Below the pieces are notes generated by a model. The model made no database searches, was not told the origin of the DNA, and was given only the letters and a program-made list of their open reading frames with translations. A DNA stretch of 64,000 bases from Brachyspira pilosicoli (lineage in GTDB: Bacteria; Spirochaetota; Brachyspiria; Brachyspirales; Brachyspiraceae): contig NZ_SAXY01000012.1 of NCBI RefSeq assembly GCF_008016535.1, forward strand, positions 62,001 through 126,000, read 5' to 3'. The position numbers were made by a program, and so were the translations under genes. Numbering within the stretch: the stretch's first letter is position 1; every line of letters begins with the position of its first letter. Below are positions 8,082 to 11,083 of the stretch, piece by piece.

Positions 8082-8146
8082 TTTTGTGTTTTGATTTTAT
8101 ATATATAGCTTATTTTTTATATAACTAATTTATATTCTCACTCAAA

Positions 8147-8566
8147 TTATTCTTTTATATCATTAAATACATCTTTTAATGTAATATGTTTTAATTTATC
8201 TTCCATAGCTTTTTGAACAATTTCAAGCTTTGGCTGCAATGCTGAAGTAATTTTTTTTCCAACAGGACATTTTTTATTTGGATTTTCATGAAAACTAAAT
8301 AGATTATCATCGTCTAAACTCTCTACAGCATTAAATATATCAAGCAATGTAATATTTTCTATTTTTCTATTTAATGAAATTCCTCCAGTACCTCTTTTTA
8401 CCATAATAATATCTGCTTTTTGCAACTGTATTAAAATATTTCTTATTATAACAGGATTAACATTAACACTGCATGAAATAAAATTGGAAGTCATTTTCTC
8501 ATTTTTAAAATATAGAATACAAATGAGAGTATGTATTGCTATCGTAAACCTTGAACTAATCTTCAT
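8147..8566 (-). CDS. Rrf2-family transcriptional regulator
   Basis: 139 residues with an N-terminal winged helix-turn-helix of the Rrf2 type (MKISSRFTIAIHTLICILYF...NPVIIRNILIQLQKADIIMVKRGTGGISLNR). A C-terminal dimer helix contains KKCPVGKKITSALQPKLEIVQKAMEDKL. It lacks the three-Cys [2Fe-2S] set of IscR/NsrR and resembles the YwnA subgroup. It is transcribed divergently from the macrodomain-SirTM operon. Four copies of one inverted repeat lie in front of that operon and the gene after it, and are the obvious binding sites. The first copy is about 60 bp from its own start, so autoregulation is possible. The signal is unknown; the Cys in KKCPVG could be a redox sensor (inference). Confidence 0.85.
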   Translation of the reverse strand: MKISSRFTIAIHTLICILYFKNEKMTSNFISCSVNVNPVIIRNILIQLQKADIIMVKRGTGGISLNRKIENITLLDIFNAVESLDDDNLFSFHENPNKKCPVGKKITSALQPKLEIVQKAMEDKLKHITLKDVFNDIKE

Positions 8567-8621: not shown

Positions 8622-8644
8622 ATTGTAATACTTGACATTACAAT
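8622..8644. promoter_or_regulatory. Operator 1 with -35 box of the macro-SirTM promoter
   Basis: Perfect inverted repeat ATTGTAAT-acttgac-ATTACAAT. The spacer carries a consensus -35 TTGACA (8632-8637). A -10-like TATCAT lies 16 bp on, at 8654-8659. Repressor bound here would cover the -35. The palindrome is also 56 bp upstream of the divergent Rrf2 gene. Confidence 0.75.
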
Positions 8645-8657
8645 AAAAAAATATATC

Positions 8658-8680
8658 ATTGTAACAATAAGTATTACAAT
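8658..8680. promoter_or_regulatory. Operator 2 of the macro-SirTM operon
   Basis: Inverted repeat ATTGTAAC-aataagt-ATTACAAT with the same 8-7-8 geometry as operator 1 and one mismatch. It overlaps the -10/start region. It ends just before the GAGGAG ribosome-binding site (8682-8687) of the macrodomain gene. Confidence 0.7.
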
Positions 8681-8692
8681 AGAGGAGACTTC

Positions 8693-9469
8693 ATGAATAA
8701 ATTATTATTTTTAATAGACTTTCTTATGAAAGAAAAAAATTATATATATGACGAAAATTTAACCAAAGCCATAAAAGAAAATGATGAAAAGAAGTTATAT
8801 AATTATTTTAGATGTTTGATGAATATAAGAAGCCCTGATAATATAAGCGAAGAATATTTAAAAATAGAAGATGAATATTTGCAAGAAAGACTTAAAAATA
8901 AAAAACTAACAAGCATAGATGATATAAACCCCATAAAGGATAATTTATATATATGGCAAGGCGACATAACAACTTTAATGATAGATGCAATAGTAAATGC
9001 TGCTAATTCTGCTATGCTTGGCTGTTTTGTTTCGCTTCATAAATGCATAGATAATGCAATACATAGTGCATCAGGAACTAGATTAAGACTCTATTGCAAT
9101 GATATTATGAAAGGCAATCTTGAAAAAACAGGAGGTTGCATCATAACACCTGCATTTAATCTTCCTAGCAAATATATTTTACATACAGTAGGTCCAATCA
9201 TAAAAGATGAAGTTTCAAAAAATGATGAAGAGCTTTTATATAAATGTTATAAATCATGTTTAGAAACAGCTAAAAATAATAATATAAAAAGTATAGCATT
9301 TTGCTCAATATCCACAGGAGAGTTTAGGTTTCCAAATGAACTTGCTAGCTCTATAGCAGTAAAAGCCGTGAGAGATTTTTTAAAGAATACTGAATACAAT
9401 ATAAAAATAGTATTCAATGTATTTAAAGATTTAGATTATAAACTTTATAACAATATTTTAAATAATTAG
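8693..9469 (+). CDS. Zinc-dependent macrodomain protein (ADP-ribosyl hydrolase)
   Basis: 258 residues. An N-terminal helical extension (1-85) precedes a macrodomain opening with WQGDITTLMIDAIVNAANSAMLGC. The zinc-macro signature is present: C111, H116 and C118 (LGC-x4-H-x-C), followed by IDNAIHSASGTRLR. This is the class that removes ADP-ribose from proteins and is found next to SirTM sirtuins in Firmicutes, where it reverses the sirtuin's mono-ADP-ribosylation. Further motifs TGGCIITPAFNLPSKYILHTVGP and STGEFRFPNELA match the family. It is the first gene of a two-gene operon, with the sirtuin ATG 12 nt after its stop, and is controlled by the double Rrf2-type operator upstream. GAGGAG lies 5 nt before the ATG. 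Confidence 0.92.
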   Translation: MNKLLFLIDFLMKEKNYIYDENLTKAIKENDEKKLYNYFRCLMNIRSPDNISEEYLKIEDEYLQERLKNKKLTSIDDINPIKDNLYIWQGDITTLMIDAIVNAANSAMLGCFVSLHKCIDNAIHSASGTRLRLYCNDIMKGNLEKTGGCIITPAFNLPSKYILHTVGPIIKDEVSKNDEELLYKCYKSCLETAKNNNIKSIAFCSISTGEFRFPNELASSIAVKAVRDFLKNTEYNIKIVFNVFKDLDYKLYNNILNN

Positions 9470-9481
9470 GATGTGAAAAAT

Positions 9482-10336
9482 ATGAATGAAAAATTAAATT
9501 ATATTAAATTAGCAGAAAAATTAAAATTAGCTATAGAAAAATCAGACTATATATTAATAGGAGCAGGTGCTGGGCTTTCTCTTTCTGCAGGTTTTTTGTA
9601 TAGCGGCAAACGATTTGATGATAACTTTATTGAATACAAAGATAAATATGGATTAACTGATATGTATAGTGCAGGCTTTTATAACTACCCTACTCTAGAA
9701 GACTTTTTGGGATTTTTTTCTTTATTTGTTTATATTAATAGATATGATATTCCAGCCGATAAAACTCATTTAAATCTTTTGGACATAGTAAAAAATAAAA
9801 ATTATTTTGTAATTACAACAAATGTTGATGGAAGATTTGAAGCAGCTAATTTTGATAAAAATAAACTATTTAAAGTTCAAGGGGATTTTTCTCTTTTTCA
9901 ATGTTCTATTCCATGCAAACAAGAAACTTTCTACAATGAAAAATATATAAGAGAAATGCTAAAACATAGAAAAGATTTAAAAATACCTTCTAATCTTATT
10001 CCAAAATGTCCGTACTGCGGAGCTAATATATCAATGAATCTAAGAAGCGATGACACATTTGTTCAAGATGAAAATTGGTATAAATCCAAAGATAAATACA
10101 AAACTTTCTTGAATGAATCTAAAAATAAAAATATTTTGTTTTTGGAACTATGTGTTGGATTTAATACACCTGCTATAATAAAATATTCTTTTTGGAGAAT
10201 GGCTTTAAAAAATAAAAACTCAATTTATGCATCTATTAATTTAAAAAATGTTTTTTCTATTCCAGATTTAAAAGACCGTTCTATATGCATAGATGATGAT
10301 ATATCCAAAGTATTAAAATATATAAAAAACAAATAA
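9482..10336 (+). CDS. Class M sirtuin (SirTM), protein ADP-ribosyltransferase
   Basis: 284 residues. Sirtuin NAD-binding motifs are GAGAGLSLSAG (27-37) and TTNVDG with N114 and D116. The usual catalytic His is replaced by Gln (Q133 in VQGDFSLFQ), as in SirTM enzymes, which ADP-ribosylate rather than deacylate. Four Cys, C141/C145 (CSIPC) and C176/C179 (CPYC), form the zinc site. In characterised SirTM systems the target is a lipoylated GcvH-L protein; no gcvH-L or lplA2 is encoded next to it here. The ATG at 9482 is chosen over the GTG at 9473 because AGGATG (9468-9473) lies 8 nt before the ATG and overlaps the GTG. It is cotranscribed with the macrodomain gene. Confidence 0.92.
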   Translation: MNEKLNYIKLAEKLKLAIEKSDYILIGAGAGLSLSAGFLYSGKRFDDNFIEYKDKYGLTDMYSAGFYNYPTLEDFLGFFSLFVYINRYDIPADKTHLNLLDIVKNKNYFVITTNVDGRFEAANFDKNKLFKVQGDFSLFQCSIPCKQETFYNEKYIREMLKHRKDLKIPSNLIPKCPYCGANISMNLRSDDTFVQDENWYKSKDKYKTFLNESKNKNILFLELCVGFNTPAIIKYSFWRMALKNKNSIYASINLKNVFSIPDLKDRSICIDDDISKVLKYIKNK

Positions 10337-10370
10337 TTTTAGTTGTAATACTTGACATTACAACTAAAAT
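10336..10370. promoter_or_regulatory. Operator 3 with -35 box of the NAD(P)-binding gene
   Basis: Perfect 14-bp inverted repeat (ATTTTAGTTGTAAT-acttgac-ATTACAACTAAAAT) immediately after the SirTM stop codon. Its core and spacer are identical to operator 1. It embeds a TTGACA -35 (10352-10357), with TACTAT 17 bp on at 10375-10380 as the -10. It may also act as a weak terminator hairpin for the upstream operon. Confidence 0.72.
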
Positions 10371-10382
10371 ATGTTACTATAT

Positions 10383-10403
10383 TTGTAATGATAGCTATTA
10401 CAA
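10383..10403. promoter_or_regulatory. Operator 4 of the NAD(P)-binding gene
   Basis: Perfect inverted repeat TTGTAAT-gatagct-ATTACAA, again with 7-bp arms and a 7-bp spacer, just downstream of the -10. The double-operator arrangement matches that in front of the macrodomain gene. Confidence 0.7.
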
Positions 10404-10449: not shown

Positions 10450-11083
10450 ATGAAAATTGCAATAATAGGAGCAAATGGAAAAGCTGGAAGATTAATTATG
10501 AATGAGGCATTAGAAAGAGGATTAGATGTTACAGCTATAGTAAGAGATAAAACAAAAATCAATAATTCAAAAGTAAAAGTTATAGAAAAAGATTTATTTG
10601 ATTTAAGAAAAGATGATTTAAAAGAATTTGACACTGTAGTAAGTGCATTTGGAATATGGGATGAGAAAGAACTTGATAAACATTCATTAGTTATGGAACA
10701 TCTATGCAAAATACTTGCAAATACTAATACAAGGCTTATGATAGTAGGCGGTGCTGCAAGTTTATATGTAAATAAAGAGCATACTATGATATTAAAAGAT
10801 GCACCTAATTTTCCAGAGGTTTTTATGAGGGTAGCAATAAGTTCTAATAAAGCATTTGATATATTAAAATAAGAAAGATGTTTTATGGACTTATGTATCA
10901 CCTTATGCAGATTTTCAAGCTAATGGTGAAAAAACAGGAGAATATAATATAGGCAATGATGAATTATTAGTTAATTCTAAAGGCGAGAGTTATATTAGCT
11001 ATGCTGATTATGCGGCTGCTTTTGCTGATGAAATAGTTAATAAAAAATACTTAAATCAAAGAATAACATTCTGTTCAAAATAA
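10450..11083 (+). pseudogene. NAD(P)-binding (YhfK/NmrA-like) reductase, frameshifted
   Basis: The first 140 codons (10450-10872) give a Rossmann-fold atypical SDR: MKIAIIGANGKAGRLIMNEAL, DVTAIVRDKTKI and LMIVGGAASLYV. They stop at TAA right after FDILK. Skipping one base (T10870) lets the protein continue from 10871 to 11083 with the expected C-terminal half: KKDVLWTYVSPYADFQANG, YISYADYAAAFADEI, QRITFCSK. The joined length of about 210 residues is normal for the family. It is therefore a one-base insertion, a sequencing error or recoding. AGGAG precedes the ATG by 7 nt. Its promoter carries the same double operator as the SirTM operon, so it belongs to the same regulon and probably reduces a small electrophile or quinone. 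Confidence 0.8.

Follow-up and report, generated by a model that had tools for sequence, protein, structure and literature searches.

The Zn-Macro and SirTM genes

The window, a 64 kb stretch of Brachyspira pilosicoli DNA to which all positions below refer, belongs to a genome of 2.76 Mb that is 99.98% complete. It carries two adjacent genes on the forward strand, with a divergently transcribed regulator gene upstream and a reductase gene downstream. The first of the pair (nt 8693–9469) encodes a 258 aa protein with an N-terminal extension, predicted from its relatives to be a zinc-dependent macrodomain (ADP-ribosyl)hydrolase (Zn-Macro). The second (nt 9473–10336) encodes SirTM, a class M sirtuin and predicted protein ADP-ribosyltransferase. 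Both reading frames are uninterrupted, and the SirTM start is more probably the ATG at nt 9482 (284 aa) than the GTG at nt 9473.

The macrodomain protein scores 323 bits against the NCBIfam model NF003163 ('protein-ADP-ribose hydrolase', curated cut-off 272), and its nearest solved structures are 8RSI (MorMacro), 5KIV and 8RSL (E 4.5e-73 to 5e-65), with 8RSI the closest. The C-x4-H-x-C zinc loop, which stands in place of catalytic loop 1, is present as C111, H116 and C118 (nt 9023–9046, forward strand), and this alignment rules out a non-zinc MacroD identity. An N-terminal stretch of about 80 residues can be aligned with 8RSI and 5KIV, beginning at residue 4 or 7, and probably represents the three-helix extension typical of the (MacroD-type) Zn-Macro subfamily. 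The zinc motif read in the initial annotation is borne out by these residues, by NF003163 and by the three structures, and when checked for placement in a non-zinc class the protein falls among the Zn-Macros instead.

SirTM is too divergent to match the Pfam SIR2 model, and among solved structures it is related only to SpySirTM (5A3A, E 2.4e-60) and a fungal Macro-SirTM fusion (8RSN). Alignment to 5A3A equates N117, D119 and R191 with Asn118, Asp120 and Arg192 of SpySirTM, the catalytic positions having been named by Rack et al. in 2015 (PMC4518038). The catalytic histidine of the HG motif is replaced by glutamine (Q136-G137), and C144, C148, C179 and C182 would provide a four-cysteine structural zinc site. 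All of these residues are invariant across 74 aligned SirTMs. A deacylase sirtuin was rejected on the QG motif and the lack of a SIR2 match. The residues first picked out (Asn/Asp, Gln for the catalytic His, four cysteines) hold, and the nearest solved structure is SpySirTM.

SirTM adjoins Zn-Macro on the same strand here and in the 13 other SirTM-positive Brachyspira loci. The agreement of both proteins with their families and catalytic residues is far beyond chance. Judged by sequence, both enzymes are members of known families and the pair is of a known kind, the 'minimal operon', which upholds the initial proposal of a reversible mono-ADP-ribosylation module beside a divergent regulator in a spirochaete. 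Minimal operons have been described from Methanobrevibacter oralis (MorMacro), Enterococcus faecalis and Treponema pedis (PMC11490716), and share with the Brachyspira pair the adjacent genes, identical catalytic motifs and the absence of GcvH-L and LplA2 beside them; they differ in that the Brachyspira pair has a SifR/HypR-type operator pair in common with a YwnB-like reductase, and a host without detectable lipoylation genes. The extended SirTM operon of S. aureus and S. pyogenes (PMC4518038) shares the catalytic residues (34% identity for SirTM and 47% for Zn-Macro over aligned solved chains) and a link to oxidative stress, but the Brachyspira locus has no GcvH-L, LplA2, OYE or LLM gene. The GcvH-L and LplA2 genes that mark the extended type, along with available lipoylation, are thus absent from the operon and undetected in the genome.

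The regulator, its operators and the YwnB-like reductase

The divergent gene (nt 8147–8566, reverse strand) encodes a 139 aa Rrf2-family repressor of the YwnA/SifR type, which scores 101.8 bits against Pfam PF02082 and has 1YLF and B. subtilis YwnA (1XD7) as solved relatives. Its C100-P-V-G aligns with YwnA 1XD7, corresponding to the CPV motif cysteine at the start of helix 5. Both C100 and C16 are invariant in the Brachyspira alignment (12 rows), and are also present in all eight SirTM-linked Rrf2 proteins from outside the genus. SifR-type monothiol sensors have been described with one conserved cysteine; because C16 is conserved as well, the protein is classed as SifR/YwnA-like and not as SifR.

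Between the Rrf2 and Zn-Macro genes, TTGTAAY-N7-RTTACAA occurs twice at a distance of 36 bp; it includes the experimentally defined operator bound by SifR and HypR, TGTAA-N9-TTACA (PMC9218516). The first predicted operator (nt 8623–8643) encloses the −35 box (TTGACA, nt 8632–8637) and the second (nt 8659–8679) abuts the −10 box (TATCAT, nt 8654–8659). A similar pair precedes the reductase gene: the first (nt 10343–10363), a 21-mer identical to nt 8623–8643, encloses the −35 box (TTGACA, nt 10352–10357), and the second (nt 10383–10403) lies just 3′ of the −10 box (TACTAT, nt 10375–10380). The window contains no exact site besides these four, and the whole genome has five. In the SirTM-positive Brachyspira loci examined, one or more exact operators stand before every Zn-Macro gene (14/14) and every YwnB gene (13/13), with constant spacing relative to the −35 and −10 boxes. 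In one genome (G001) the pair is chromosomally distant from Rrf2-YwnB and the operator is still kept. SifR leaves this operator upon quinone attack at C102, its CPV cysteine (PMC9218516), the residue that corresponds to the invariant C100 of the Brachyspira Rrf2.

The reductase gene (nt 10450–10872, forward strand) encodes a YwnB-like, NAD(P)H-binding quinone reductase and carries a frameshift close to a run of A at about nt 10865, which leaves 140 of about 211 aa; the remainder runs on in another frame to nt 11083. Most relatives have an intact orthologue of about 211 aa (one other copy, L062 of G025, is likewise broken), and the full-length orthologue at L015 matches S. pneumoniae YwnB (4R01) with an E value of 3.7e-56. 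The frameshift suggests that the SifR-type regulon is partly decayed in this strain. SifR controls YwnB, a quinone reductase (PMC9218516). In B. subtilis, catechol induces ywnA and allicin induces ywnAB. Compared with the SifR/YwnA regulon of S. pneumoniae SifR and B. subtilis YwnA-YwnB (PMC9218516), the Brachyspira version has the same CPVG-cysteine Rrf2, operator consensus and YwnB-type neighbour, the consensus occurring upstream of the predicted target genes including YwnB; it differs by the added ADP-ribosylation pair, the second conserved cysteine (C16) and the tandem operator pairs.

The conservation of two cysteines, as opposed to one in SifR-type sensors, means that the inducer of Rrf2 could differ, and that disulfide or HOCl stress could take the place of quinones, with the rest of the scheme proposed below unchanged. 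The operator is also that of HypR, which senses HOCl and HOSCN through Cys33-Cys99′; C16 beside C100, and C32 in the window copy, place a potential disulfide partner at hand, and the induction of ywnAB by allicin points the same way. The S. aureus HypR-MerA system resembles the Brachyspira locus in operator half-sites and in having an Rrf2 thiol sensor. However, the score against the NCBIfam HypR model is far under the cut-off (59.9 versus 180), the Cys33 equivalent C32 occurs in the window copy alone among the 12 rows, and the adjacent gene codes for the quinone reductase YwnB rather than MerA. A HypR-like stimulus is a credible but less than even prospect, and quinones and related electrophiles are the preferred candidate inducers.

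Other genes in the genus carry similar sites. The same paired operator lies upstream of a flavodoxin/ferredoxin (4Fe-4S) gene in G009 (L065:3697-4600) and G014 (L063:4594-4962), so the predicted regulon has another electron-transfer protein in SirTM-negative species. A single operator-like palindrome precedes a Na+/H+ antiporter gene (about 475 aa) at L070:4315, L071:4446, L073:4387, L074:4305, L068:4706 and L069:4824, and may reflect regulon membership or conservation by descent. In the three nearest relatives, a gene of 292–295 aa lies between Rrf2 and an EamA transporter (L015:3916-4803, L016:6088-6966 and L017:3864-4742); it is absent from the window (nt 8082–8147), and the L017 copy has no Pfam match.

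A variable cassette in Brachyspira and its counterparts in gut Bacillota

SirTM was found in 14 of 29 Brachyspiraceae genomes, all of one genus. The gene order of positive loci is Rrf2-operators-ZnMacro-SirTM-operators-YwnB, and that of negative loci is Rrf2-operators-YwnB, with the same outer neighbours. In loci without the pair, these neighbours are seen on the SecA side (L058, L066, L067), the FMN-reductase side (L059) and the side of a 447 aa gene (L060-L062); L067 is the Rrf2-YwnB locus of G001, whose SirTM/Zn-Macro pair sits elsewhere. A tree of Rrf2-YwnB from 20 genomes shows at least four changes between presence and absence of SirTM, on branches marked by a star. The pair is thus a variable cassette inside a SifR-type regulon, and its pattern is compatible with repeated loss and with repeated gain alike. 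The description of the module as mobile fits its recurrent presence and absence at fixed sites, but no transposase or integrase was noticed in the neighbourhoods viewed, an unsystematic inspection. The regulator cannot be called dedicated to the pair, as first proposed: an Rrf2 orthologue occurs in all 14 SirTM-positive genomes and in 9 of 12 SirTM-negative genomes of Brachyspira, and sister genomes lacking SirTM keep Rrf2 and its operators beside the YwnB-like reductase. It follows that Rrf2 is older than the pair or wider in scope.

At L020:5339-7002 (G021, an 86% complete genome), Zn-Macro and SirTM are each split into two frames, through decay or draft errors, and the operator pair and YwnB are intact. 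G001 (L057) has the most divergent SirTM, unlinked from Rrf2-YwnB, and is the only Brachyspira with a lipoate ligase-like gene; a neighbouring frame starts like a dehydrogenase E1 alpha subunit.

The Brachyspira SirTMs form one clade (support 100), and AU tests bearing on a horizontal origin of this clade reject neither its grouping with other spirochaetes nor that with Ruminococcus (p about 0.69 each). A SirTM match was present in 45 of 296 sampled Spirochaetota genomes, most of those outside Brachyspira belonging to one family. SirTM in a spirochaete is not new, since it was reported in Spirochaetaceae in 2015 (PMC4518038) and the Zn-Macro of Treponema pedis was used in a 2024 study (PMC11490716). 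The genus does lie outside the best-studied hosts, as initially stated, but those two reports and the wide occurrence of the pair in gut Clostridia temper the point.

Several hundred more SirTM relatives occur in genome contigs, those listed being mostly from gut Clostridia. A CP[VI]-type Rrf2 lies within 5 kb of SirTM in 8 of 79 non-Brachyspira loci, in varied gene orders, and four of these also have YwnB. With up to one mismatch, the operator was found at six of the eight Rrf2-linked loci versus one of the 71 without such a link (p 7e-7); the link is weaker for the strictly exact 10-letter motif (4/8 versus 3/71, p 0.0014). Control motifs and spacings gave 0–2 matches in the same 437 kb. In distant gut Bacillota, too, TGTAA-N9-TTACA goes with Rrf2-linked SirTM loci.

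Many Clostridia loci have a different regulator, an HxlR protein with an N-terminal CPV cysteine, upstream and divergent. This cysteine is the one by which HxlR/DUF24 proteins respond to electrophiles. Counted near SirTM (0.53 Mb in all) and far from it (the rest of the flanking sequence at those loci, 0.33 Mb), HxlR genes number 25 and 3, PNPOx-ferredoxin genes 22 and 0, nitroreductase genes 17 and 0, and radical-SAM genes 17 and 0. A 263 aa protein without a significant Pfam match is encoded upstream of SirTM/Zn-Macro at L122:6356-7144 and at six other Clostridia loci (8 near, 0 far). At Clostridia-type loci L112, L115, L119, L123, L140 and L151, no Zn-Macro was detected within 5 kb of SirTM, and some such loci adjoin a nitroreductase or PNPOx-ferredoxin gene.

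The operators might be there just for the YwnB-like reductase and for autoregulation by Rrf2, with Zn-Macro/SirTM a constitutive passenger whose operator pair is left as a by-product of insertion. This would agree with the coming and going of the cassette and with the operator pair upstream of YwnB in SirTM-negative genomes, but it is unlikely: the Zn-Macro promoter has one or more operators of its own with correct −35/−10 geometry in all 14 genomes, including the unlinked G001, and operators also precede the PNPOx-Zn-Macro-SirTM operons of Bacillota. Control of the pair by Rrf2 remains the favoured reading. Still more improbable is a defence or toxin-antitoxin role, in which SirTM would be a toxin that consumes NAD or ADP-ribosylates, and Zn-Macro its antidote. 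Macrodomains that act as antitoxins (DarG) do exist, as do sirtuin defence proteins that consume NAD, and presence varies among close relatives, but redox genes are consistent neighbours of the pair, its operators are of a stress type, and an obligate antidote fits poorly because several Clostridia have SirTM with no Zn-Macro detected nearby. An anti-phage system was rejected, neither protein matching any PADLOC model at E ≤ 0.01.

Substrate and proposed mechanism

Lipoylated GcvH-L is so far the one substrate known for SirTM; those of minimal pairs are stated to be unknown (PMC11490716). The initial annotation had looked to lipoyl proteins as targets, which does not hold for this host as far as the searches reach. 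These were HMM searches for GcvH, ligase/LipB and lipoyl domains (a very divergent acceptor or ligase would escape them); they detected neither GcvH nor LplA/LipB in the genome, and the GcvH and ligase searches were each positive in 13 of 14 control genomes. Three biotinyl/lipoyl-domain matches were obtained, two of them biotin carriers with AMKM and the third a weak match in a protein unlike a carrier. With GcvH and ligase missing and the carriers being of the biotin type, a lipoyl target was rejected for this host. Across the Brachyspiraceae, no GcvH exceeded the cut-off and a lipoate ligase occurred in G001 only, so that 13 of 14 SirTM-positive Brachyspira show neither. A weak, short GcvH match in G009 (20.4 bits) proved to be a biotin carrier (EAMKMEN), and similar matches elsewhere were for this reason not counted. 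Among 40 SirTM hosts outside Brachyspira, 7 have a full-length GcvH, 12 a ligase match over the cut-off and 28 neither; many are MAGs whose completeness is not established, but three are named isolates, Mordavella massiliensis An420c, Blautia sp. MSJ-19 and Ruminococcus sp. Marseille-P6503.

That the pair acts as in S. aureus and S. pyogenes, SirTM modifying a lipoylated GcvH-like carrier and Zn-Macro reversing it, is strongly disfavoured despite the homologous enzymes, their full set of catalytic residues and the sole known substrate, given the missing lipoylation genes here and in nearly all SirTM-positive Brachyspira and the inability of MorMacro, the Zn-Macro of a minimal pair, to demodify GcvH-L (PMC11490716). 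Together these observations indicate that the target in Brachyspira is something else.

The reading we favour, with a probability of about 0.7, is an electrophile-responsive mono-ADP-ribosylation switch acting on a non-lipoyl substrate, formed by a minimal SirTM/Zn-Macro pair inside a SifR/YwnA-type thiol-stress regulon. Repressor binding, electrophile sensing and the transferase and hydrolase activities are those we infer from characterised relatives. In the unstressed cell, an Rrf2 dimer would sit on the tandem operators, one at the −35 box and one at the start region, and keep the YwnB-like reductase gene as well as the Zn-Macro/SirTM pair repressed. Rrf2 would be released once its CPVG cysteine C100, perhaps with C16, is modified by quinones or other electrophiles that react with thiols. 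YwnB would then reduce quinones, SirTM would use NAD+ to mono-ADP-ribosylate its acceptor, and Zn-Macro would strip the mark off again. The acceptor would be other than lipoyl-GcvH-L because the genome appears to be without lipoylation.

What sets the system apart from described ones is the predicted SifR/YwnA-type control and the missing lipoyl substrate. The literature searched, which included few subscription journals, held no paper joining SirTM to Rrf2 in this way or to Brachyspira, and neither SifR/HypR-type control of a minimal pair nor a host without lipoylation genes was met there. More tentatively, the minimal pairs of gut anaerobes may serve general electrophile-stress signalling, in which thiol-sensing repressors of two unrelated families, SifR/YwnA-type Rrf2 and HxlR, would switch on a lipoate-independent, reversible mono-ADP-ribosylation whose target is perhaps a redox flavoprotein or a ferredoxin encoded within the regulon itself. 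A host without detectable lipoylation rules out the one known class of SirTM substrate, and its small genome, defined operator and predicted inducer make the substrate question of minimal pairs directly testable. The proposed switch would join SifR/YwnA electrophile sensing with bacterial protein ADP-ribosylation, two subjects unconnected in the literature searched, and if the wider view is true, the staphylococcal and streptococcal lipoyl-GcvH-L system would be a specialised branch of general electrophile signalling.
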